A stretch of 50,881 bases of DNA from Sphingobacteriaceae bacterium. Its GTDB lineage: Bacteria > Bacteroidota > Bacteroidia > B-17B0 > Aurantibacillaceae. Under the pieces are notes generated by a model, which was given only the letters and a program-made list of their open reading frames with translations, was not told the DNA's origin and searched no databases. This document shows positions 14,937 to 26,477 of the stretch, in pieces. Each line of letters opens with the position of its first letter. Position 1 is the stretch's first letter. The stretch covers positions 1 to 50,881 of the forward strand of contig JAHEYG010000011.1 of the NCBI GenBank assembly GCA_023251725.1. The letters run 5' to 3'. The position numbers were made by a program, and so were the translations under genes.

Positions 14937-15000
14937 CAAACCTATTTTAAGACTTACCAAAGCTATTAATATTTTGTGAAAACGCTACATTTTGCAACGT
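14937..15000 (-). promoter_or_regulatory. -7 element with degraded LytTR-type box
   Basis: Minus-strand TAGGTTTG (14944-14937) fits TAnnTTTG. One TTCACA half-site lies at 14980-14975, 30 bases further upstream, one base closer than in the four good copies. The distal half-site expected near 14996 is not recognisable, although the GTAGC centre between the halves is partly kept. It is probably a weak or decayed version of the regulator site. Confidence 0.45.
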
Positions 15001-15008
15001 AATTAATA

Positions 15009-15057
15009 AAAGATTAAAGATTAAAGATTAAAGATTAAAGATTAAAGATTAAAGATT
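15009..15057. repeat. Heptanucleotide tandem repeat, 7 x AAAGATT
   Basis: Seven perfect copies of AAAGATT, directly beside the degraded regulator box of the lipoprotein gene and before the terminator of the upstream gene. The same unit recurs at 16158-16185. The copy number is likely to vary by replication slippage. Confidence 0.9.
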
Positions 15058-15065
15058 ATTTAATT

Positions 15066-15099
15066 AAAAAAGCTCAGTTATAAATAACCAAGCTTTTTT
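15066..15099 (-). terminator. Intrinsic terminator of second CMDPxA lipoprotein gene
   Basis: Minus-strand AAAAAAGCT ... AGCTTTTTT with an extended, slightly imperfect inner stem (GGTTAT/ATAACT), ending in a T-run. It lies 57 bp after the stop at 15157. Confidence 0.75.
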
Positions 15100-15156
15100 A
15101 TTTTTAAGATTCTTTCTTCGATTAATATTAATTTTTTTGTTACAGTAAATTAAATA

Positions 15157-15627
15157 TTACCAGAGATATTCCTGCGAAGTACAAGTGTTGCCAGCAAATG
15201 TATTATTACTAATTGGAATGGTATAAAGTGTAGCGTTAGAAGCGTTAACCAAAGTGGCATTGCTTGTTAATATTTTTGTTTTGCTTGTACCCAGGTCTTT
15301 TGTAACCGTTAAGGCACCACCACCGCAACTTGGAGCCGTAGTATAATATGGAGTGGTTATTGGTACGGTTCCTGCCAAGGCGCCATCTACATATATTTTA
15401 ACATTGGCCACACCATGAGCTACGCAACTATCGGTAAAACCTTTTTTCCACCAATAAACATATTGACCCTGATAGTTGCAGGTACCATCATCGTCGGTGG
15501 CTTTTGAGTTATAATTTGTGCTGTCTTTATCTTTACATCCTTTAACTGCACACGATGTAAAAATTAAATTTGAAGTTAAAGCTAATGCAGCTATAACTGT
15601 TACAATGGATTTCATTTTTGTTTTCAT
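15157..15627 (-). CDS. Small lipoprotein with CMDPxA-type motif (paralogue 2)
   Basis: A 156-residue predicted lipoprotein, signal peptide ending LIFTSC, followed by CKDKDSTNYNSKATDDDGTC, the same Cys-bounded motif as in the neighbouring paralogue. The C-terminal domain matches paralogue 1 closely: YWWKKGFTDSC, KIYVDGALAGTV, SCGGGALTVTKDLG and TCTSQEY. The two genes are a tandem duplication. Upstream it has a complete LytTR-type direct repeat and an exact -7 TAAATTTG. Function unknown; it probably folds as a small disulphide-stabilised beta domain on the cell surface. Confidence 0.72.
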   Translation of the reverse strand: MKTKMKSIVTVIAALALTSNLIFTSCAVKGCKDKDSTNYNSKATDDDGTCNYQGQYVYWWKKGFTDSCVAHGVANVKIYVDGALAGTVPITTPYYTTAPSCGGGALTVTKDLGTSKTKILTSNATLVNASNATLYTIPISNNTFAGNTCTSQEYLW

Positions 15628-15650
15628 TTTTTTAAGTTTTTAAGTTTTAT

Positions 15651-15716
15651 CAAATTTACTGAGATGATTATTTCAACGATTTTATATTTTGTGAAAAGGG
15701 TACTTTTTGGTGTGAA
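15651..15716 (-). promoter_or_regulatory. Predicted LytTR-activated promoter (site B)
   Basis: TGTGAA half-sites at 15690-15695 and 15711-15716 are 21 bp apart. On the minus strand the box reads TTCACACCAAAAAGTA then TTCACAAAAT, followed after 31 bases by TAAATTTG (15658-15651). This drives the lipoprotein gene starting at 15627. It shares spacing and sequence with sites at 16006, 18765 and 23523. Confidence 0.7.
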
Positions 15717-15801
15717 AACGATGAATTATTAAGTGGGACTATGTTAGATTTTTAATAATTATTTTTTACACTAAAATGAGAGCCCATTTTATATTTTAAG
15801 G

Positions 15802-15990
15802 CTATTCAAGAATGAAACGCATTCCTTGATGCGTGAGTAATAAATCATTTGTGATAGGAGGTTTATTAATTTCCTCGATTTTTTTCTTGCTAGTTTTCTT
15901 GATGTTTTCTGAACCCAAACGGCTTTTGTTTATTGAAAAAACGCATAATAAAATTAAAATTAGGGCGATGGTTGATATTATCTTTTTCAT
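15802..15990 (-). CDS. Small membrane or exported protein, unknown
   Basis: A 62-residue ORF starting at ATG 15990 (MKKIISTIALILILLCVFSI); the open frame extends six codons upstream but those would lie too close to the promoter. The N-terminal 20 residues form a signal peptide or single membrane helix. The rest is Lys-rich (KKTSKKKIEEINKPP) and ends LLTHQGMRFILE. No family is recognised. The gene is supported by a well-placed -7 element (16006-16013) and a full regulator box with the same geometry as at larger genes. It may be a small secreted or membrane effector of the LytTR circuit. Confidence 0.55.
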   Translation of the reverse strand: MKKIISTIALILILLCVFSINKSRLGSENIKKTSKKKIEEINKPPITNDLLLTHQGMRFILE

Positions 15991-16005
15991 TTTTTTTAGT
16001 TTCTT

Positions 16006-16071
16006 CAAATGTATTAAGATACCTATTTGTGTTATTGGATTTTTTGTGAAAGCGATACTTTTTAGTGTGAA
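16006..16071 (-). promoter_or_regulatory. Predicted LytTR-activated promoter (site C)
   Basis: TGTGAA half-sites at 16045-16050 and 16066-16071 (21 bp period). On the minus strand TTCACACTAAAAAGTAT then TTTCACAAAAA, then 31 bases to TACATTTG (16013-16006). It is upstream of the 62-residue ORF starting at 15990. Confidence 0.7.
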
Positions 16072-16157
16072 AGGTTAAGAATATTATAGAAAGAATGCGC
16101 GAATTGAGACTCTATCGCTAAGCCTCGCGACTCTCCACACCGAACCTTGAGATTTGA

Positions 16158-16185
16158 GATTAAAGATTAAAGATTAAAGATTAAA
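16158..16185. repeat. Heptanucleotide tandem repeat, about 4 x GATTAAA
   Basis: Four units of the same 7-base repeat as at 15009, preceded by degenerate units (GAGATTT). It lies 11 bp beyond the stop of the DUF5686 gene. The 60 bp before it (16084-16150) are GC-richer than the surroundings and carry no ORF I can support. Confidence 0.8.
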
Positions 16186-16195
16186 ATAAATTTAT

Positions 16196-18760
16196 TTACA
16201 ACTTAATCTCTATCGAAAACTTTACGCTGAATGGGCTCACATCTTTATGATCTAAATAAGTTAAGCGATGTATAAAATCTACTCTTAAACATTTTAAAAT
16301 ATTACTTACACCATATCCTACTTCAATGTAAGGTGTATTTATATTTAATCCGTTAATTGGGGTAATTGGTAAGCCGGCTTGTGTTTTATCGACTTGCATG
16401 TTTCTATTTTCGTCGCTTAAACTTCCAAATAAAACTTTGCCGCTGGCGTGTGTGCGCCATCCCCATTTTTGAATAAGCGGCACACGATTAAAAAATAATC
16501 CCTCAAAATTATGCTGCCAGGTTAAGGAGGCATATTTATCACTCACAAATTCTAAATAATTCATTTGGTTAAACGCATTGTTCAAATACAAATACGATTG
16601 ATTACCCTGATGAATAAATAAAAGCGGGAAGGGAATTCTGGAAGGTGTGTAACCGCCCGACAAAGTAATTGTGCTTCTTCCCAAAAAACCAAACATAAAC
16701 GATCGGCTAATGCCGGCACTAATTTTATGATACTCATAATCGCCCAATAGTTTAGAACCATAAGTATAACGCAAATTATAAATAAAATTATTTCGATTAA
16801 CTCTTACTTTAAAACGTTTGTTGCGTTTACTTCTCATGGCCACTTCGCCCGGCGAATATCTAAAATCGTAAACCAATTCGCTTACCTGAAAACAATTTTT
16901 TGTACGGCTGTCCGCTGCGTTTTCAGGATCCACTTTACATTCGAAAGAAAAAACGGGTTTATAAAAACGATTTTGTATTGTAAAATTTTGAGTTAAGCCG
17001 GCAATTAATTCGGTATTGCAATACAGCGAAAATTCTTGCAAATAATACGGATAAATAAATTTTCCGAAACGAGAGGCAGCCGCAAATATAGAAGTGGCTA
17101 AGCCCGAATTAAGAGCCAGAAAATCGGAAGTAATGCCTATTTGCTCTGCATCGAAATGATATTTTGCACCCAGTTCGCAATATCTTTTACGACTCATAAT
17201 TCTGCTCACTTCCAGTTCGGGTTTAAAGTGTATTGGTCCGCCGGTTGAAGCTGCCAAATAACCTCTTATGATCCAGTTCTTATTAAATTCCTGCGTAGTT
17301 CTAAAACCAATTCTGAAACGATGATGTTCAAATAAATTGTAGGCGTATAAATAAGGGTACGGACCAAATTCGATTTTCCCAAACGATTTATATCCCGAAA
17401 TTATTAAATCTAAAGTTTCTAACCAGCTTCTTACTTTGGGAATATTTTTTATGGAATCGATAATGGAATACATTTTTTTCTCGTCCTGCGTAAGCGCAAC
17501 CGGACGAATAGAATCAAAATTTTGCAAGGCCAGTGAATCGGTTGTATTGATTTCGATAGGTGTATCAAAAAAACTTAGCGGTTGCGGATTCACAAAAGAA
17601 TAATGATGGTAATTTGAATTTGTTTTTATTAATACCCCTGATGAGAGATCGGATAGTTCTGCCAAATCAACCACAATACGGGAGTTGGAGATAAACCAGG
17701 TTGAATCTATTTTTTTAAACTCGTGTTGAACTTTTATTTTTTCAACATAATTAATATTGGCCTCTTTATTAATTTGCGCATCCATTCTTATAAGTGAATA
17801 ATCTAATTTATCTATCCACATTTTACCGGCAAAGGCTAAGTCGAATTTATTTTTAGGATAAAATTTTATTTCGTAGCAAAAGCGGTCATTGATAAAAGTG
17901 CTATCCACTAAAAAATATTTGTAATTTATTTTCCACTCGTCGCAAATAGGCGAAACAAAATCTTTAGTTAAAATGTTTGAGAAATTATTATAAAAATTTA
18001 CGTTTTGTAAACCCGAACCAACAAACTGGTTAATGATGGAATTATCTGCGAGTGCGATACCCGAAATTTTTGAATTTAAAATACTCTCTTTACTTTTTTT
18101 AGGATTGTTTCGGAAATAATTTTTCGAAATAACTTCGCTCACAAAAACCGGAATTACAGGTTTGCCGTCTTCGCCTGCTACTTTTTGAGCATTGTCTATA
18201 ATTTTGGCGATGTTGCCAATGACTAAATTCTTTTTTAATTTATCGGAAATATTATCCAGACAAATTTCGCTGCGGGTATAGGTTTGGTATTCGAGTGCCG
18301 GTAAATTATTATTGCTGTTTTTTTGTTTGTGTGAAATTACTTTTCTTAAAATTGGCCAGGCGGGGTTTTCGCCCATTAAAATAGTAACTTCTTGCAATTG
18401 ATTAGAACTTGGTGATAATTGAAAATCGAGTTGAACAACATTGAGTGATTTGTTAATGCGTTTTGTTTTTGATTTATAACCTAAATACTGAACGGTTAAT
18501 GAATCGAATTGTTTACCGGTTTCAATTTTATATTCACCGTTAAAATCGGTAGTTACACCATTGGCGGTTCCTTTAACGTAAACGGTGGCAAACGGAATTG
18601 GTTCGGAACTTGAAACATCGGTAACTTTTCCTTTAATGGTTATTTGTGCTTTGAGCGTTCCGAATGATAAGGCAATTAAAAAAATTATAAATAAATAAAT
18701 AAATACTTTTTGTACATCTTTTTTAAATGCTGTATAGTGTATATTATTTGTTTCATTCAT
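16196..18760 (-). CDS. CarboxypepD_reg-like / DUF5686 outer-membrane protein
   Basis: An 854-residue protein from ATG 18760; the open frame runs 19 codons further but into the promoter. After a hydrophobic export segment (about 20-40) comes a carboxypeptidase-regulatory-like beta-sandwich (ITIKGKVTDVSSSEPIPFAT, then VTTDFNGEYKIE and YLGYKSKTKRI). The DUF5686 body follows, starting NPAWPILRKVISHKQK, with a C-terminal outer-membrane barrel (FEGLFFNRVPLIQKWGWR, FSIEIKL end). Such proteins are TonB-receptor-like in appearance but lack a plug; their function is unknown. A full LytTR-type box and a -7-like element lie directly upstream. It is the largest predicted target of the neighbouring kinase-regulator pair. 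Confidence 0.85.
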   Translation of the reverse strand: MNETNNIHYTAFKKDVQKVFIYLFIIFLIALSFGTLKAQITIKGKVTDVSSSEPIPFATVYVKGTANGVTTDFNGEYKIETGKQFDSLTVQYLGYKSKTKRINKSLNVVQLDFQLSPSSNQLQEVTILMGENPAWPILRKVISHKQKNSNNNLPALEYQTYTRSEICLDNISDKLKKNLVIGNIAKIIDNAQKVAGEDGKPVIPVFVSEVISKNYFRNNPKKSKESILNSKISGIALADNSIINQFVGSGLQNVNFYNNFSNILTKDFVSPICDEWKINYKYFLVDSTFINDRFCYEIKFYPKNKFDLAFAGKMWIDKLDYSLIRMDAQINKEANINYVEKIKVQHEFKKIDSTWFISNSRIVVDLAELSDLSSGVLIKTNSNYHHYSFVNPQPLSFFDTPIEINTTDSLALQNFDSIRPVALTQDEKKMYSIIDSIKNIPKVRSWLETLDLIISGYKSFGKIEFGPYPYLYAYNLFEHHRFRIGFRTTQEFNKNWIIRGYLAASTGGPIHFKPELEVSRIMSRKRYCELGAKYHFDAEQIGITSDFLALNSGLATSIFAAASRFGKFIYPYYLQEFSLYCNTELIAGLTQNFTIQNRFYKPVFSFECKVDPENAADSRTKNCFQVSELVYDFRYSPGEVAMRSKRNKRFKVRVNRNNFIYNLRYTYGSKLLGDYEYHKISAGISRSFMFGFLGRSTITLSGGYTPSRIPFPLLFIHQGNQSYLYLNNAFNQMNYLEFVSDKYASLTWQHNFEGLFFNRVPLIQKWGWRTHASGKVLFGSLSDENRNMQVDKTQAGLPITPINGLNINTPYIEVGYGVSNILKCLRVDFIHRLTYLDHKDVSPFSVKFSIEIKL

Positions 18761-18764
18761 AAAG

Positions 18765-18830
18765 TAAAGATATTTTACTCTTGAAGTCGGGCCGATTATA
18801 TTTTGTGAATAAGGCACTTTTTAGTGTGAA
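18765..18830 (-). promoter_or_regulatory. Predicted LytTR-activated promoter (site D)
   Basis: TGTGAA half-sites at 18804-18809 and 18825-18830 (21 bp period); minus strand TTCACACTAAAAAGTGCC then TTCACAAAAT. After 31 bases lies TATCTTTA (18772-18765), one base from the -7 consensus. A further TGTGAA at 18888 is exactly three 21-bp periods from the distal half. Confidence 0.65.
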
Positions 18831-18980
18831 AACCGAAAAATTTCATTTAAAGATATATGAATTTTGGTTGCGAAGACAGGTTTTGATTGTGAAAATAGGT
18901 GAAATTTCGTCTAATTAACAACTCTATTAGTTCATTGGGAAAGTTTAACTCCCTAAAGTAACCCTTAAGCTAATTTTGTT

Positions 18981-19014
18981 AAAACGGCCCACTATTTTAA
19001 CAGCATGCCGTTTT
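18981..19014. terminator. Intrinsic terminator after ELWxxDGT gene
   Basis: AAAACGGC and GCCGTTTT arms with an 18-base loop, with A/T runs on both sides. It lies 18 bp after the stop of the minus-strand gene at 19032. The 195 bp from here to the site D promoter hold no gene I can support. Confidence 0.6.
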
Positions 19015-19031
19015 TTATTTTTTGGAGGATT

Positions 19032-20663
19032 TTACTCAACAATAATTCTTCCGGTGGAAACTTGTCCGTTTTGTTCGGTTTTTATGAGATACAATCCTTT
19101 TGCAAATTCGCTTAAATCAATTAAATTTTTTGCGGCTTCGCCCTTTAGTGTTTGCGATATTATTAATTGTCCGTTGGCATTTATAATTTGCAGTGTTACG
19201 GGACTGTTAGATTCTGAATCGTAAACCAAATTAAATATGCCGTTGCTTGGGTTGGGGTAAATTCGTATTTTCTTATTCTCAGCATCTAAATTTAAAACGC
19301 CCGTTATTGTTGAAGTGTATTTCCATAATTCGTTTCCGGTAACAGCATTTTTCGCAACAAAATAAAGTGTTGAACCCATTACTTTAAAATTATTTGGATC
19401 TGAATTTGCTGTACCGGTATTAATATCACCAACTAATAAAGTACCGGATACTGTTCCATCAGATTGCCATAATTCATTCCCATTAATGCCGTCGTTGGCG
19501 CTGAAATAAATATTTGTACCTAAAACTGTAAATCCGGAAGGATTTGATCCTATTGTACCAACATTAATGTCCTTAACTAAAACAGTTCCGACAGCGGTTC
19601 CGTCACTTTTCCAAATCTCTTTTCCATTAATACCATCGTCGGCGCTGAAATAAATGTTTGATCCTAAAACTGTGAAGTCACGTGGAGTAGAATTATTTGT
19701 GCCAATATTAATATCTTTAACTAAAACTGTACCGGCAGCGGTTCCGTCACTTCGCCAAAACTCTGATCCATTAATTGCATCCGTTGCCTCAAAATAAATA
19801 TTTATACCTAAACCTGTAAATTGGTAAGCTCCAGAACCATTTGGACCAGGATTAATATCTTTAACTAGGATAGTTCCGGAGGCAGTTCCATCACTTTTCC
19901 ATAATTCGTCTCCATTAATTCCATTATTTGCATTAAAATAAATGTTTGCACCAAATACAGCTAAGAAGGAAGGATATGAATCTGGGTTTCCAGCATTAAT
20001 ATCCTTTACTAAAACAGTGCCGGCCGCAGTTCCATCGCTTTTCCATAATCCATTCCCATTAATACCATCATTTGCTTGGAAATAAATATTTGAGCCTAAA
20101 ACTGTAAGGAATGAAGGATCCGAATTATTTGTGCCAGGATTAATATCCTTAACTAAAACGGTACCTGCAACGGTTCCATCGCTTTTCCATAATTCGTTTC
20201 CTTTAATGCTATCATTAGCTTGGAAATAAATATTTGCACCTAAAACTACAATGCCAGATAAATTTGAGCTTTGGAATCCAAGTCGAATGTCTTTTACCAT
20301 CATAGTTCCAGAGGCCGTACCATCACTTTTCCATAATTCAGAACCATTAATACCATCATCAGCTGAGAAATAAATATTTGAACCTAATACTGTCATATAT
20401 TTTGGAAAAGATGAAAATGTGGGATTTATATCTTTAACTAAAACAGTTCCGGCTACCGTCCCGTCGCTTTTCCATATCTCTTTTCCATTAATGCCATCAT
20501 CTGCCTGGAAATAAATATTTGAACCTAGTACTGCCACGTCGGAAGGATTAGAATTATTTGTACCCGTATTAATATCACTTACTATTGAAAGTGTTTGTGC
20601 GTTAGTAATATTTGCTAATGAAACAATACCTGCACTTAAAATGAATTTGTAAATTTTTTTCAT
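19032..20663 (-). CDS. Secreted ELWxxDGT-repeat protein with T9SS sorting domain (paralogue 1)
   Basis: A 543-residue protein: signal peptide (ILSAGIVSLANITNAQ), then eight full ELWxxDGT repeats of about 50 residues (GSNIYFSADDGINGKEIWKS style, each ending GTVLVKDIN) plus a ninth degenerate one (ELWKYTST). It ends in a type IX secretion C-terminal sorting domain, about residues 470-543 (IRIYPNPSNGIFNLVYDSE ... GLYLIKTEQNGQ). The repeats probably form a beta-propeller or solenoid. The sorting domain directs export through the T9SS, usually to the cell surface. Its paralogue lies at 21852-23513. An AAACTATCCCG hairpin precedes the start. Confidence 0.9.
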   Translation of the reverse strand: MKKIYKFILSAGIVSLANITNAQTLSIVSDINTGTNNSNPSDVAVLGSNIYFQADDGINGKEIWKSDGTVAGTVLVKDINPTFSSFPKYMTVLGSNIYFSADDGINGSELWKSDGTASGTMMVKDIRLGFQSSNLSGIVVLGANIYFQANDSIKGNELWKSDGTVAGTVLVKDINPGTNNSDPSFLTVLGSNIYFQANDGINGNGLWKSDGTAAGTVLVKDINAGNPDSYPSFLAVFGANIYFNANNGINGDELWKSDGTASGTILVKDINPGPNGSGAYQFTGLGINIYFEATDAINGSEFWRSDGTAAGTVLVKDINIGTNNSTPRDFTVLGSNIYFSADDGINGKEIWKSDGTAVGTVLVKDINVGTIGSNPSGFTVLGTNIYFSANDGINGNELWQSDGTVSGTLLVGDINTGTANSDPNNFKVMGSTLYFVAKNAVTGNELWKYTSTITGVLNLDAENKKIRIYPNPSNGIFNLVYDSESNSPVTLQIINANGQLIISQTLKGEAAKNLIDLSEFAKGLYLIKTEQNGQVSTGRIIVE

Positions 20664-20679
20664 GGTGTTTAGTTTTTAG

Positions 20680-20697
20680 CCGAAGGCTTCCCCTCGG
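20680..20697 (-). promoter_or_regulatory. 5'-UTR hairpin with compensatory changes
   Basis: Minus-strand CCGAGGG-GAAG-CCTTCGG: a 7-bp stem with one G-U pair, flanked by AAACTATC upstream and GCTAAAAAC downstream exactly as in the hairpin at 21810, but with different stem bases. A -7-like TGTATTTG (20716-20709) stands 11 bases upstream, the same distance as at 14384. Confidence 0.55.
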
Positions 20698-20725
20698 GAT
20701 AGTTTATTCAAATACATTAACTCTT

Positions 20726-21793
20726 TTATCTTTTTTTCATATAATCTTTTAAATTGCTCTCTTTTATTTTAGCATTATAATCTTCAACAGCAATAAGGTT
20801 AAATGAAATCCCCCAGTCGGAATAAGCCAGAATTTCACCATCTGCGGCGTCTACCACATACTGCATCCAAACAACATGTTCTTTATTAGTTTCGGTATCT
20901 TTAAAGGTTAAAGTGTATCTTAAATTATCAGCTTCGGGTGCAATCATCACGTAAGCAGCATCCGGTTTATTATTCATAATTACCTCGCGATAGGTGGCAG
21001 CATCAACAAATTCAACTTTATTTTTGTAAGTATCAACGGCCTTACCTTGGCTCACTTGTTTATTAAGATATGGCGATAAGATATAAAGTGTTTTACCTTT
21101 TAGTTTTTCGCCATTAATTTTTGATGATTCTTTCCAGTATTCTTTTTTGGTTTTCGTTAAAAGAACATTACAGTATTTTTGAAGTTGATAAATGCCATAA
21201 TAAAAATCTTCTTCTAGTGGGTCTCTGGAAGCTAAATTAACGAACACAGAAGGAACAGCGGCGGGTTTTTCGGGCATTTTTAAAAGCAAAGTTCCCATAT
21301 CTAAATTACGATCGGTAACAGCGAAGATATCTTCCCACCGGTTTCCTTTTGTACCAATCAAGGGATCGTATCTGTTGGCCGCAAAACCGCCACCGCTCGA
21401 AATCATTGCAGCTAATCCACGGTCAACGTTAACTTTATTGAACATAAGGATGGCATAAGTTTTATCTTTTTTGCTGATAATTTCGGCCACTTCAGTATAA
21501 TTTTTGTATTCGATACCAGCCGATAATTTCCATATTTTATCTACCGCGTTTTTTAAGGATTGATTAAAATAAGCAAGCTTATCCTGATATTCTTTTAGCT
21601 GACCCGGCTTATCGGCAAACTTTGCAATTGTTTTTTCATCGCCTTGTTCAATGCAAACAATTAATTTGCGCGATTTTATGTCTTCCATGTCTTTAGTATT
21701 GGCGTATCCGGATTGCGCTTTGAGCGTTTGGTAAGAAGATGCTGAAATCATAATTACGATTAAACAGCTGAGAAGTGTTACTTTATTTTTCAT
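20726..21793 (-). CDS. Exported protein of unknown function
   Basis: A 355-residue protein with a signal peptide ending SSYQTLKAQ. The mature part mixes helices and strands; a glycine-rich stretch (MISSGGGFAANRYDPLIGTKG) and conserved-looking blocks LVCIEQGDEKTIAKF, LYILSPYLNKQVSQG and MIAPEADNLRYTL stand out. No named domain is recognised. It lies between two ELWxxDGT paralogues on the same strand, 58 and 62 bp from them, and carries a 5'-UTR hairpin like one of them. A shared surface or periplasmic function is inferred from context only. Confidence 0.6.
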   Translation of the reverse strand: MKNKVTLLSCLIVIMISASSYQTLKAQSGYANTKDMEDIKSRKLIVCIEQGDEKTIAKFADKPGQLKEYQDKLAYFNQSLKNAVDKIWKLSAGIEYKNYTEVAEIISKKDKTYAILMFNKVNVDRGLAAMISSGGGFAANRYDPLIGTKGNRWEDIFAVTDRNLDMGTLLLKMPEKPAAVPSVFVNLASRDPLEEDFYYGIYQLQKYCNVLLTKTKKEYWKESSKINGEKLKGKTLYILSPYLNKQVSQGKAVDTYKNKVEFVDAATYREVIMNNKPDAAYVMIAPEADNLRYTLTFKDTETNKEHVVWMQYVVDAADGEILAYSDWGISFNLIAVEDYNAKIKESNLKDYMKKR

Positions 21794-21809
21794 GATGTTT
21801 TAGTTTTAG

Positions 21810-21826
21810 CCGTGGCAAAGCCACGG
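21810..21826 (-). promoter_or_regulatory. 5'-UTR hairpin (CCGTGGC type)
   Basis: Minus-strand CCGTGGC-TTT-GCCACGG, a perfect 7-bp stem with a 3-base loop, preceded by AAACTATC and followed by CTAAAACTAAAACATC and the ATG at 21793. A weak -7-like TAAATTTA lies 15 bases upstream. Confidence 0.55.
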
Positions 21827-21851
21827 GATAGTTTATAATTTTAAATTTATT

Positions 21852-23513
21852 TTACTCAACAATAATTCTTCGGGTAGAAACTTGTCCGCTTTGTTCTGTT
21901 TTTATAAGATACAATCCTTTTGCAAATCCGCTTAAATCAATTAAATTTTTTGCGCCATCAGCATTTAGTGTTTGAGACATTACTATTTGTCCGCTTACAT
22001 TTAAAATTTGCAGTGTTACGAGACTGTTAGACTCAGAATCGTAAACTAAATTAAATACGCCGGTGCTTGGGTTGGGGAAAATTACTATTTTCTTATTCTC
22101 AACATCAAAATTTAAAACGCCTGCCGTTGATGGTGTATATTTCCATAATTCACCTCCATTAGCTAGATTAAAAGCACTAAAATAAAGTGTTCCACCCATT
22201 ACATTGAAATTGCTAGGGTTTGAATCGGATAAACCGGAATTGATATCACCCACCAATGAAGTACCTAATGCGGTTCCGTCAGTTGTCCATAACTCCTCTC
22301 CGTTAACACCGTCATTAGCACTAAAATAAATATTTGAACCAAGAACTTTAAATCCGGAAGGAAATGAACTATTTGCGCCCGATTTAATATCCTTAACTAA
22401 CATCGTGCCAGCTGTAGTTCCATCACTTTTCCATAACTCTGTTCCATAAACACCACCATCATAAGCATTAAAGTAAATGTTAGAACCTAAAACCGTGAAC
22501 CCTACAGGGTTTGAACTGAAAAGACTAAGGCCAACATTTATATCCTTAACCAGAACAGTTCCGGCGGCTGTTCCATCACTTTTCCATACTTCGGTTCCGT
22601 AATTGCCATCGTTGGCGCTAAAAATAATATTAGAACCAAAAACCTTCATCTCCGAAGGACCAGAGCCACTTGTTCCGGAATAAATATCCTTAACTAATAT
22701 AGTTCCTATAGTAGTTCCGTCAGTTTTCCATAATTCAGCGCCATTAATAACATCGATTGCTCTAAAATAAATATTAGCACCTAAAACTAGAAAGTTATCG
22801 GGAAATGATCCGGCTACTCCAGTATTAATATCCTTAACCATAACAGTTCCGACAAGAGTTCCATCAGTTTTCCATAATTCCGCACCATTAACTCCATCGT
22901 CTGCTAAAAAATAAATATTTGAACCCATAATTGTAAATCCTGAAGGGGATGAACTTCCGCTACCAACATTTATATCCTTAACTAAAACTGTTCCGGATGC
23001 AGTTCCATCAGTTTTCCATAATTCTGTGCCGTTAATTCCATCGTTAGCTATAAAATAAACATTTGAACCCAATCCTTTAAAACCTGAAGGACTTGAACTA
23101 CCAATAATCCCAACATTAATATCCTTAATTAAAATTGTTCCGGCTGCTGTTCCATCACTCTTCCATAATTCAGTACCTGCAATGCCATCACTTGCTTGAA
23201 AATAATTGCTCGAACCAAAAGCTGTATTTTCAATAGGGAACGAACTTAAGCCGCCTACATTAATATCTTTTACTAAAACTGTTCCGCCAGCCGTTCCATC
23301 ACTTTTCCATAACTCCGTTCCATTTGAACCGTCATCAGCGGCAAAATATAGTTTGTTATTCATAACACTAAAAGAAAAAGGTATAGATGAACCGTTTCCT
23401 GGATTAATATCACTTACAATAGAAAGCGTTTGTGCATTGGTAATTTTTGCTGATAAAACAATACCGGCACTTAAAATGTATTTGTAAATTTTTTTCACGT
23501 TGTTTATTTTCAT
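21852..23513 (-). CDS. Secreted ELWxxDGT-repeat protein with T9SS sorting domain (paralogue 2)
   Basis: A 553-residue paralogue of the 19032-20663 protein: signal peptide (ILSAGIVLSAKITNAQ), eight ELWK(S/T)DGT repeats and a ninth degenerate ELWKYTPS, then a T9SS sorting domain beginning IVIFPNPSTGVFNLVYDSE and ending GQVSTRRIIVE. ATG 23513 is chosen over the upstream TTG at 23525 because that TTG lies in an exact -7 promoter element (23523-23530). The two paralogues' signal peptides and sorting domains are nearly identical while repeats differ, suggesting duplication followed by repeat divergence. A LytTR-type box controls it. Confidence 0.9.
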   Translation of the reverse strand: MKINNVKKIYKYILSAGIVLSAKITNAQTLSIVSDINPGNGSSIPFSFSVMNNKLYFAADDGSNGTELWKSDGTAGGTVLVKDINVGGLSSFPIENTAFGSSNYFQASDGIAGTELWKSDGTAAGTILIKDINVGIIGSSSPSGFKGLGSNVYFIANDGINGTELWKTDGTASGTVLVKDINVGSGSSSPSGFTIMGSNIYFLADDGVNGAELWKTDGTLVGTVMVKDINTGVAGSFPDNFLVLGANIYFRAIDVINGAELWKTDGTTIGTILVKDIYSGTSGSGPSEMKVFGSNIIFSANDGNYGTEVWKSDGTAAGTVLVKDINVGLSLFSSNPVGFTVLGSNIYFNAYDGGVYGTELWKSDGTTAGTMLVKDIKSGANSSFPSGFKVLGSNIYFSANDGVNGEELWTTDGTALGTSLVGDINSGLSDSNPSNFNVMGGTLYFSAFNLANGGELWKYTPSTAGVLNFDVENKKIVIFPNPSTGVFNLVYDSESNSLVTLQILNVSGQIVMSQTLNADGAKNLIDLSGFAKGLYLIKTEQSGQVSTRRIIVE

Positions 23514-23522
23514 TAGTTTAAT

Positions 23523-23588
23523 CAAATGTAGTTTAGTGTTTACTTCAAAGACATAATATTTTGTGAATCGGGTACTTTATGGTGTGAA
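23523..23588 (-). promoter_or_regulatory. Predicted LytTR-activated promoter (site E), divergent with the kinase gene
   Basis: TGTGAA half-sites at 23562-23567 and 23583-23588 (21 bp period); minus strand TTCACACCATAAAGTACC then TTCACAAAAT, then 31 bases to TACATTTG (23530-23523). It lies between the ELWxxDGT gene and the TPR histidine kinase, so it could also affect the kinase operon. Confidence 0.72.
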
Positions 23589-23644
23589 TACCGATAAATA
23601 ATTTGTGTAGGCTTACCATTATAAAAAAAAGAGTATTTTTGGTT

Positions 23645-25726
23645 ATGCTCAAAGCGGCTTCGTGTCTTAAAATAATGATCCTTTGTTTACTCTTAAACAA
23701 TTTTCAAAATCAGCTTTGTTCACAATCTATTGTTTCCCAAAATAAAAACGATAACTATTTAAAGCGTTTAAGTGTAAAAGATTCTTTGTGGGAAGTTTAT
23801 AATAATCCCACAAATTCGGATACCAATCGAATAAAAACACTTCAACGAATTCTTTGGACTTACATGAGTACTAAACCCGACACTTCATTTATTTTAGCAA
23901 AACAAGAATTAATTCTAACTCAATTAACGAAACATAAAGTACTTGAAGGAAGGGCATTAATTGATGTGGGCGCTGCTTTACAAACCATCGGCAATTTTGA
24001 TGAAGCATTAGTATATTATTTAAAAGCAATTAAAATATTTGAAAATGAAAATAATAAAAGAGGATTAGGAGCTGTTTGTAATAACATCGGATTGCTGCAT
24101 CAGAACCAAGCCAATTATCCGGAGGCCTTAAAATATTATTTAAGATCGCTTCATACGAGTGAGGAAATTGGCGATAAATTAGTTGAGGGGAAAGCCTTAA
24201 CCAATATTGGAGCGCTTTATTATTTTCAGAAAGAATACGATAAAGCCACTAATTATTATGAAAAAGGAATACTCATAAATAAAGAAATTAAAAATAAATC
24301 GGCTGAAGCACTTTGTTACAGTAACCTTGGAATTATTTATAAATACAAATTAAATTTTAAGAAGGCCTTAGAATATTATTTGATGTCGCTTAATATCAGA
24401 GCAGAAATTGGCGATAAATCGGGGGTTGCTGCCTGTTATATAAATATTGGAGGTAATTTTCAGGATCAAAAAAAATATGAGGAAGCTTTGCAATATTATT
24501 TAAAAGCTATTGCTACTTCGAAGGAAATCGGAAAAAAACCGGAGATGTGCGTGAGCTATTTAAATTTATCAGTTTTATGTAACGAGTTACTAAATTATAA
24601 GAACGCCGTTCGGTATTCTGATTCTGCTTTAAAAATAGCCAAAGAAATGGGCGATATTAATAACGAACGTTTAGGTTACGAAATATTATCTAACATTTAT
24701 GCCAGATCAAAAAATTTCGAAGAAGCCTATAATTACCAGATTAAATTTAAAAAATTAACAGATAGCATTTATAATGCCGATAATAGTAAACAACTCGGCG
24801 ATTTAAAAACTCAATACGAAGTAGATAAAAAAGCCACTGAGCTTAAATTAACTTCGGAAGCCGAAAAAAAAGTAAGCGAAACTAAATTGAATCAAGAAAA
24901 AACTTTGCGTTACTTTTTATTTGGCGGATTAATTTTAGTATTGGCCGCTGGAATTACTTTTTTAAACCAACGCAACAAACAAAAAAAATTATCGGAACAA
25001 TTGCAATTAATAAATGAAGAGCTCAAAAAAATAAACGATTCTAAAACAAAACTATTTTCTATTATTGGTCACGATATAAAATCACCAATGGCCAGTATAC
25101 AAGGCTATACCGAATTAATTGCCGACAACAGCATTTCTTTTACCGAAACAGAAATAAAAGAATTTGCAAAAACCATGAACCTTTCGGTGAAAAATTTAAA
25201 TGCCATGCTCGATAATATTTTGTTGTGGGCCTTAAACGAAAGCAAACAATTAAAAACTCAGTTTAATGTATTAAGCATAAATGATGTGATTACCTCTTGT
25301 ATTGGATTATTAGCAGTAAACTCGCTTAAAAAAAATATTAAAGTTGTTTACACAAGTAATGTGGTTCAAAATATTGAAAGCGATAAAAACATATTGACCA
25401 CCGTTATCAGAAATATATTATCTAACGCCATAAAATTTTCGCAACACGATTCTGAAATTAAAATAAACTCCAAAATAGAAAACCATCAATTGGTTATCAG
25501 CATTTCGGATTCGGGTGTCGGGATGAATGCAGCACAAATTGATAATGTTTTAAAGCATCAAAAACAAGAAAGCACTTTAGGAACCGCCAACGAAAAAGGA
25601 AATGGTTTGGGTTTATTTTTATGTAACGAATTTATGCTTAAATTAGAGGGAGATTTTTTAATTGAAAGTGAACCCGGTAACGGAACCACTGTAATTTTAA
25701 AATTAAATATCACTAACTTTTCATAA
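23645..25726 (+). CDS. TPR-domain sensor histidine kinase
   Basis: A 693-residue membrane kinase started at ATG 23645 (the open frame begins at a TTG 42 bp earlier). Order: N-terminal signal or anchor (CLKIMILCLLLNNFQ), about six or seven TPR units (roughly 95-365; NIGLLHQNQANYPEALKYYL style), a coiled stretch, one transmembrane helix (about 422-440), then HisKA and HATPase. The phospho-acceptor His is about residue 476 in IIGHDIKSPMAS. The N box is RNILSNAIKFS, G1 is DSGVGM and G2 is GNGLGLF. The TPR region should face the periplasm. The next gene, 1 bp away, encodes its likely LytTR partner. Confidence 0.93.
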   Translation: MLKAASCLKIMILCLLLNNFQNQLCSQSIVSQNKNDNYLKRLSVKDSLWEVYNNPTNSDTNRIKTLQRILWTYMSTKPDTSFILAKQELILTQLTKHKVLEGRALIDVGAALQTIGNFDEALVYYLKAIKIFENENNKRGLGAVCNNIGLLHQNQANYPEALKYYLRSLHTSEEIGDKLVEGKALTNIGALYYFQKEYDKATNYYEKGILINKEIKNKSAEALCYSNLGIIYKYKLNFKKALEYYLMSLNIRAEIGDKSGVAACYINIGGNFQDQKKYEEALQYYLKAIATSKEIGKKPEMCVSYLNLSVLCNELLNYKNAVRYSDSALKIAKEMGDINNERLGYEILSNIYARSKNFEEAYNYQIKFKKLTDSIYNADNSKQLGDLKTQYEVDKKATELKLTSEAEKKVSETKLNQEKTLRYFLFGGLILVLAAGITFLNQRNKQKKLSEQLQLINEELKKINDSKTKLFSIIGHDIKSPMASIQGYTELIADNSISFTETEIKEFAKTMNLSVKNLNAMLDNILLWALNESKQLKTQFNVLSINDVITSCIGLLAVNSLKKNIKVVYTSNVVQNIESDKNILTTVIRNILSNAIKFSQHDSEIKINSKIENHQLVISISDSGVGMNAAQIDNVLKHQKQESTLGTANEKGNGLGLFLCNEFMLKLEGDFLIESEPGNGTTVILKLNITNFS

Positions 25727-25727
25727 T

Positions 25728-26477
25728 ATGCATACCACGCTGATAATCGACGATGAATCTTATTTTTCAATCGCTTTAAAAAAACAATTAGAATTACATT
25801 GTCCCGACATTTTAATTATCGGCAACGTTGCCAGTGTGGCCGAAGGAGTTTCTTTTATAAATGAACACAAGCCGAGTTTAATTTTTTTAGATATTGAAAT
25901 GCCCATGGAAGATGGTTTTTCTTTATTTAAATATTTTCCGAATCCCGACTTCGATGTGATTTTTACTACCGCGCACAATTCATACACTATACAGGCCATT
26001 CGGCATTCGGCATTAGATTATTTGTTGAAGCCGGTTAATAAAGAAGAGTTACAAAATTCGGTTCAGCGTTTTGTGGAGAAAAGACAATCGCAAAGCACCG
26101 CCAAAATTGCTAACCTTTTACATAATTTAGACATTCAGGTATTGTCGAAACAAAAAATTGCGGTGCCGGTTGGGCACGCTTTTGAATTTATTGAATTTTC
26201 CACCATTATAAGAGCTGAAGCGGATGATGCTTACACAAAACTATTTTTAATAAACGGAAAAAAAATATTGGTGACTAAATCATTAAATTTAATTGATAAT
26301 CTTTTGCCGCAAGAATTATTTTTTAGAATTCACCGCTCCCACATTATTAATTTATTGCATGTAAAAACCTATATCAAAAAAGAAGGCGGCACTGTAATTT
26401 TAGCCGATGATTCGGCTTTACCGGTTGCCTTATCTAAAAAAGAAGAACTTTTTACGAAGTTAAATTTGAAGATGTAA
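25728..26477 (+). CDS. LytTR-family response regulator
   Basis: A 249-residue two-component regulator: receiver domain (about 3-118) with acidic pair Asp8/Asp9, phospho-acceptor Asp55 in LIFLDIEMP, Thr in IFTTAHNS and Lys in DYLLKPVNK. A LytTR DNA-binding domain follows (about 150-245; AEADDAYTKLFLINGK, then LFFRIHRSHIIN). LytTR domains bind pairs of short direct repeats about 21 bp apart, which matches the boxes found upstream of four neighbouring genes. It follows the kinase by 1 bp and is surely cotranscribed. This is the probable activator of the surface-protein genes to its left. Confidence 0.95.
   Translation: MHTTLIIDDESYFSIALKKQLELHCPDILIIGNVASVAEGVSFINEHKPSLIFLDIEMPMEDGFSLFKYFPNPDFDVIFTTAHNSYTIQAIRHSALDYLLKPVNKEELQNSVQRFVEKRQSQSTAKIANLLHNLDIQVLSKQKIAVPVGHAFEFIEFSTIIRAEADDAYTKLFLINGKKILVTKSLNLIDNLLPQELFFRIHRSHIINLLHVKTYIKKEGGTVILADDSALPVALSKKEELFTKLNLKM

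Follow-up and report, generated by a model that had tools for sequence, protein, structure and literature searches.

This locus raises the question why a row of neighbouring genes, most of them unrelated to each other, should start behind one and the same precisely spaced DNA element. In the window, i.e. the whole stretch of 50,881 nucleotides that was analysed (contig JAHEYG010000011.1 of assembly GCA_023251725.1), four minus-strand boxes of the form TTCACA-N15-TTCACA (TGTGAA on the plus strand) are present. All four are intergenic, their half-sites recur with a period of exactly 21 bp, and the proximal half-site stands exactly 31 nt from a -7 element in each case (Table). A sequence-only reading had proposed these positions and spacings together with a centre common to the boxes. 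Inspection of the letters confirmed both, the sequence AAAGT being exact in four of four boxes. Judging from the DNA, we consider it quite likely that the boxes are operators for a response regulator of the LytTR type, probably the adjacent one, which would drive local exported proteins. Four and probably five neighbouring surface-protein genes possess a common regulatory switch beside a sensor-kinase/LytTR pair.

Table. Features of the locus, with coordinates of the window. R1 is a sequence-only model described in the text; its ranks refer to the genome from which the window derives. Typing with Pfam covered ten proteins of the window.
Feature	Position	Strand	Details
Lipoprotein-like CMDPxS protein, 152 aa	14452..14910	-	putative target of the degenerate site; no Pfam match
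Degenerate fifth site	14937..14980	-	TTCACA at 14975-14980, then 30 nt, then TAGGTTTG at 14937-14944
Lipoprotein-like protein, 156 aa	15157..15627	-	putative box A target; no Pfam or NCBIfam match
Box A, TTCACACCAAAAAGTACCCTTTTCACA	15690..15716	-	-7 element TAAATTTG at 15651-15658; R1 rank 1
62-aa protein	15802..15990	-	putative box B target; ATG inside ORF 15802-16008; no NCBIfam match
Box B, TTCACACTAAAAAGTATCGCTTTCACA	16045..16071	-	-7 element TACATTTG at 16006-16013; R1 rank 2
DUF5686 protein with CarboxypepD_reg-like domain	16196..18760	-	putative box C target; Pfam
Box C, TTCACACTAAAAAGTGCCTTATTCACA	18804..18830	-	-7 element TATCTTTA at 18765-18772, one mismatch; R1 rank 3
Second ELWxxDGT-repeat protein with T9SS sorting domain	19032..20663	-	probably in box D transcript; Pfam and NCBIfam
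355-aa protein	20726..21793	-	probably in box D transcript; no Pfam or NCBIfam match
ELWxxDGT-repeat protein with T9SS sorting domain	21852..23513	-	first gene behind box D; TIGR04534, TIGR04183, Por_Secre_tail
Box D, TTCACACCATAAAGTACCCGATTCACA	23562..23588	-	-7 element TACATTTG at 23523-23530; R1 rank 5
Third in-phase half-site TACACA, one mismatch	23604..23609	-	21 bp beyond box D, towards the divergent kinase gene
TPR histidine kinase, HisKA and HATPase_c, FimS-like	23603..25726	+	Pfam; divergent from box D
Response regulator, receiver and LytTR domain	25728..26477	+	Pfam Response_reg (1.3e-18) and LytTR (7.3e-15)

Such spacing is hard to obtain by chance, as the sequence-only reading had maintained: allowing one mismatch, the half-site pair has five matches in the window as compared to a mean of 0.30 in 100 shuffles, none of which reached five. 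When the pair was combined with the centre AAAGT and up to three mismatches were permitted, four matches were obtained in the window, all exact, versus a mean of 0.05. Between the four sites, pairwise identity averages 0.83 in the box and 0.77 over the first 8 nt past the box and in the -7 element, but it drops upstream (0.39), in the remaining spacer (0.41) and downstream (0.45), and to speak of otherwise unrelated DNA was therefore fair. Because box and -7 element are alike while the surrounding DNA is dissimilar, boxes A-D are not recent copies. It is accordingly extremely unlikely that we are looking at copied promoters or at a dispersed repeat without a regulatory role, since flanks in the window are dissimilar with box and -7 element kept, and since the genes behind the boxes are mostly unrelated to each other according to Pfam and NCBIfam. 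Near-identical three-copy arrays that do look like a dispersed element occur in one genome of the family, G017, at several places (L398, L399, L400 and L404). An Rfam search of the window yielded no matches.

The motif is also rare in the remainder of the genome (3.14 Mb in 132 contigs, 75% complete). The exact half-site pair has five matches, four of which are the window boxes and one of which is unrelated, while the control pattern matched once. Pair plus centre with up to three mismatches gave seven matches versus nine for the control, and nothing beyond the four in the window was above chance. R1, a sequence-only model made from 38 boxes of other organisms with the window left out, returned 43 matches up to an E-value of 10, among which boxes A to D occupied ranks 1, 2, 3 and 5 with E-values of 2.0e-5, 2.3e-4, 0.0054 and 0.0061, respectively. 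Frequent copies at random sites across the genome, which would speak against a regulon, are thus not what was found, and the outcome favours the sequence-only reading. The boxes chosen for training R1 included no tandem repeats, a single in-frame site (L269) and only a minority of the Allomuricauda group described below. The degenerate fifth site, which has one perfect half-site and no clear distal one, ranked 7 of 43 (15.3 bits, E 0.075); this match is not significant alone, yet it lies in the expected place. The site was absent from the R1 matches when the window alone was searched, and in that search a separate match (23574-23607, 12.3 bits) covered the third half-site of box D.

Regarding the genes behind the boxes, box D is probably followed by an operon consisting of the two ELWxxDGT genes and the 355-aa gene between them, and no box is present in the gap before the second ELWxxDGT gene. 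For the 355-aa protein, a single weak match (E 3.8e-6) outside its own genome was detected among 87 genomes of the family. The ATG of the DUF5686 gene lies just 5 nt past the -7 element of box C, and the predicted transcript is therefore possibly leaderless. The 152-aa CMDPxS protein behind the degenerate site resembles the 156-aa protein behind box A. The kinase that diverges from box D matches the FimS model NF053520 with an E-value of 1.5e-86 over 516 residues, but its score of 291 bits is below the cut-off of 600 bits. FimS of Porphyromonas is a kinase controlling surface-protein genes, and its partner FimR is a LuxR-type regulator, unlike the LytTR partner in the window. As to the kinase gene itself, a later ATG at 23645 is the likelier start.

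If the -7 element is assigned to positions -12 to -5 or so, the proximal half-site covers roughly -48 to -43, slightly above where a -33 element usually lies, and no TTTG is evident there in the four window promoters. In the simplest interpretation, an activator would take over the -33 contact at these promoters. In the mechanism we propose, the FimS-like membrane TPR kinase would sense a signal and phosphorylate the LytTR regulator, a dimer of which would bind two TTCACAnnA half-sites on one DNA face, two helical turns apart and just upstream of the expected -33 element. The bound regulator would then recruit RNA polymerase to promoters with a good -7 element (TAnnTTTG) and no evident -33 element. 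Switched on in this manner would be the two type IX-secreted ELWxxDGT proteins, the 355-aa, DUF5686 and 62-aa proteins and probably the two lipoprotein-like proteins.

This architecture agrees with what has been described for LytTR operators, which comprise two, sometimes three, direct repeats of 9 bp with 10-13 bp between them, spaced about two helical turns apart and located just upstream of the promoter (PMC11347149 and PMC6193735). The operators of AgrA, HdrR/BrsR, YpdB, RcoM and CoxC resemble the window boxes (TTCACAnnA with 12 bp between) in repeat layout. However, the word differs, and in the window a Bacteroidota -7 element at a fixed 31 nt takes the place of a -35/-10 promoter. LytTR operators may also serve repression: the LytTR protein CoxC, which uses three repeats, is a repressor (PMC11347149), its repeats overlapping the -35 element, and box D likewise has a third half-site. 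A mainly repressing role of the boxes is nonetheless unlikely, because they lie upstream of the -33 position rather than over it, in promoters lacking an evident -33 element, and because most LytTR regulators bind upstream and activate (PMC11347149).

The reading as LytTR operators is supported by comparison with other genomes, which the sequence-only reading had suggested as a check. The complete 66-bp architecture, TTCACA-N15-TTCACA-N31-TAnnTTTG, was scanned in GTDB genomes and found in at least 119 stretches. Of the 119 listed, judging by their names, 112 are from Bacteroidota and 4 from elsewhere, AT-rich composition and the Bacteroidota -7 element biasing the pattern towards this phylum anyway. 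A LytTR profile built from 62 regulators near other loci detected a LytTR gene at 70 of the 119 loci listed and gave no match at 49, some of which are on short contigs. At 55 listed loci, mainly from Allomuricauda, Flagellimonas and kin, the LytTR regulator lies approximately 130-360 bp upstream of the box; these were treated as one orthologous case. The only one of them read whole, L219, has the box between the LytTR regulator and a histidine kinase (HisKA_2). Outside this group, a LytTR gene is present at 15 of the 64 loci listed. In the clearly separate cases, the distance from the end of the LytTR gene to the box is 7 bp at L187, 31 bp at L208, 50 bp at L218 and 109 bp at L273, while the box precedes a lone LytTR gene at L258 and L263 and a kinase-regulator pair at L159. 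Seven of the 64 listed sites fall within long frames, and three or more are made of TTCACAA-type tandem repeats; in both cases the matches probably reflect chance. The exact 20-base motif, searched in 150 relatives, had two other matches (G107 and G109) with no -7 element at 31 nt, which were taken as chance.

R1 was also run over the 87 genomes of the family, and the surroundings of 18 untrained and two training places were examined. The top matches were the two training loci (G113 and G039), directly followed by untrained ones. LytTR genes lie within 5 kb of eight of the nine best untrained matches (L354-L362, at least 24 bits), whereas from the 14 LytTR proteins per 3.14 Mb we estimate an expectation of about 4% per match; L356-L358 are orthologous, which reduces the number of independent cases. 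In seven of these nine, the LytTR gene is within 120 bp, ending 22-119 bp before the match or starting 85 bp past its beginning. L361, the sole one without a LytTR gene, is a 4.9-kb contig. Nine weaker untrained matches include two with LytTR (L363 and L367), and the tenth-ranked match, G017:C1, has no LytTR gene in its 3-kb locus. Of 12 family places, 11 have a -7 element with no more than one mismatch exactly 31 nt away and one has it at 30 nt, a count that is not independent of R1 because the model has the 31-nt spacing built in. At two of these 11 places an equally good -7 element is nearer to the box, and several family boxes (L354-L358) match the distal half-site poorly.

A sample of the whole phylum, searched with one mismatch, gave 25 matches outside the genome of the window versus 18 for the reversed control, by which no phylum-wide enrichment was shown. 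LytTR genes were found beside three of the 25 matches and none of the 18 controls. Inside long frames were 13 of the 18 control matches, many of them in evidently homologous stretches, as compared to seven of the 25 pattern matches. Repeats with a 21-bp period were further sought de novo at 60 other LytTR genes. In a first scan, the combination of period 21 and distance 31 scored five, level with two other cells, and the scan was dropped because three of the five were near-identical stretches in three genomes (L067, L077 and L090). A second scan of 60 LytTR regions detected 46 intergenic pairs at period 21 versus a mean of 7.7 at other periods. Up to 150 bp from the LytTR gene, period 21 was seen in 16 pairs, which came from 11 of the 60 regions; the next best was period 14 with nine. 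Heptamer arrays inflate periods 14 and 21, and three of the 16 pairs (L081) resemble such arrays. The excess near LytTR genes lends weak support to the LytTR reading.

The same scan bears on the idea that the boxes are operators of another direct-repeat regulator, e.g. an activator of the AraC/XylS type. These activators use repeats approximately 21 bp apart that adjoin the -35 element, so that geometry alone cannot separate them from LytTR regulators. Indeed, 37 control regions devoid of LytTR were also rich in 21-bp repeats (22 pairs versus an average of 4.1 for the other periods), although part of them are heptamer arrays; three of originally 40 control regions had been removed beforehand, as they held LytTR. 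Given that LytTR genes adjoin the box in separate lineages, we regard a regulator of this type as very unlikely.

If the binder is a LytTR protein, it has to be asked which one, since the genome encodes 14 of them and proximity alone cannot settle the matter. In AgrA, residues N201 and S202 within the motif FhRhHRS make the DNA contact (PMC4227749), and the corresponding motif of the window regulator, FFRIHRS, fits. H[RK][ST] is present in 70 of 70 LytTR proteins near pattern boxes among the matches listed, HRS in 11 of 11 near family boxes, and H[RK][ST] in 14 of 50 from other regions, while regulators beside CCACTTA-type repeats have HH instead. HRS being the family consensus, the motif is consistent with the LytTR reading and does not decide it. 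Taking H[RK][ST] as proof for the neighbour was rejected, as it does not single this regulator out among the 14. A search of solved structures for LytTR contacts matched mainly receiver domains. Among 100 relatives, no close relative of the window regulator was found (best identity 44%, no usable ortholog), and the pairing of regulator and box therefore rests on neighbourhood. Binding by one of the 13 other LytTR proteins is rather improbable. It would be compatible with the H[RK][ST] motif in five of these 13 and with the observation that LytTR proteins at most 26% identical to the window regulator also adjoin such boxes, which makes overall LytTR similarity no predictor of the operator word. 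However, wherever another genome has an adjacent LytTR gene, the box lies next to that gene, and different repeat words stand beside three other LytTR genes of the same genome (ACCACTTAT near L106, TCACTTATTAAA near L101 and TCCCAAA near L102). We infer that the neighbour is most likely the one among the 14 that binds the boxes, and that it would act as activator rather than repressor.

Direct repeats of LytTR operators are known already; the TTCACA word and its fixed geometry are new to the literature searched. Neither was found in print in the open-access literature, and no Bacteroidota LytTR operator was found there beyond a prediction for Bacteroides in PMC6193735. The LRS-like operons listed in its Table 3 have predicted 11-bp direct repeats, 11 bp apart (period 22), which stand 11 bp upstream of TGTA-19-TATCTTTG. 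As in the window, these are direct repeats near a promoter in Bacteroidota. They differ by their word (TCCGGTATTCA/ACCGGAAATCA), by the period of 22 instead of 21 and by a gap of 34 nt between the repeats and the -7 element. Moreover, they involve a membrane LytTR protein acting on its own operon only, with no kinase and no cluster of exported targets. LRS-like systems combine, within a single operon, a LytTR protein and an inhibitory membrane protein; the window instead has a TPR histidine kinase gene followed by that of a receiver-LytTR protein.

A broader reading, to which we assign about even chances, is that TTCACAnnA-N12-TTCACAnnA, rigidly spaced by 31 nt from TAnnTTTG, represents a common Bacteroidota LytTR operator. 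Used by distant LytTR regulators, it would repeatedly place a kinase/LytTR pair in control of neighbouring surface proteins, type IX-secreted ones among them, and of its own kinase or regulator gene. If this holds true, the targets of many orphan LytTR systems would be readable from sequence, as a fixed operator word and distance would allow direct target prediction. The operator would provide type IX-secreted proteins with dedicated local control, from promoters where an activator seems to substitute for a missing -33 element. Recurrence of the switch beside LytTR regulators and exported proteins in Bacteroidota suggests a common way of turning on dedicated surface proteins. Among 27 proteins downstream of boxes elsewhere, chosen for a usable frame, nine carry a type IX sorting domain, Por_Secre_tail or CHU_C (L353, L355, L356, L218, L366, L204, L180, L230 and L275), which fits the window because both ELWxxDGT proteins bear a type IX tail. 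Five are kinases or a LytTR protein (L363, L159, L207, L258 and L219), and the remaining 13 include surface proteins cut by the locus end, three proteins without a match and unrelated enzymes.

Boxes resembling the putative LytTR operator of the window (two TTCACA half-sites with a 21-bp period, located 31 nt before the -7 element TAnnTTTG) were also detected in other Bacteroidota genomes. One Flavobacteriales MAG carries three matching boxes (L185, L243, L238), each starting with TTCACATACAAAA and ending with GTCATTCAC, and two of them share a contig with a LytTR gene. These boxes likely represent another local regulon. One Flavobacteriaceae genome contains four one-mismatch matches (L286, L300, L302, L304), in which the half-sites read TTCACAACA or TTCACATCA and the -7 element ends with TTTA; no LytTR gene was found in the 3-kb loci around these matches.

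In G017, a genome of the window's own family, arrays of at least three TTCACA half-sites with 21-bp period occur at 14 places, one of which precedes a LytTR regulator. A -7 element at exactly 31 nt is present in only three of the 14 arrays, which constitute either a large regulon or else a repeat family. Four arrays (L398, L399, L400, L404) are near-identical and may correspond to a dispersed element.

Repeats of a CCACTTA-like word, likewise spaced by 21 bp, adjoin other LytTR genes (L106, L101, L072, L076), whose products carry HH instead of HR in the DNA-contact motif. It is possible that word and residue pair reflect a LytTR recognition code.

In the putative box D transcript, each of the two downstream genes is preceded by AAACTATCCCGNGG, behind which comes a GC-rich inverted repeat. 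This element has no match in Rfam, and the own genome contains just three copies of it. Heptamer arrays resembling the AAAGATT repeats of the window exist in relatives, where they inflate repeat counts at period 14 and 21.

Repeat features of the window and array loci of G017
Feature	Position or loci	Remark
Perfect 7-bp tandem repeats (AAAGATT)	15009-15058 and 16157-16185	intergenic, adjoining boxed genes
AAACTATCCCGNGG, then GC-rich inverted repeat	20692-20705 and 21821-21834	minus strand
G017 half-site arrays	L332, L393-L400, L402, L404, L406-L408	same family as window
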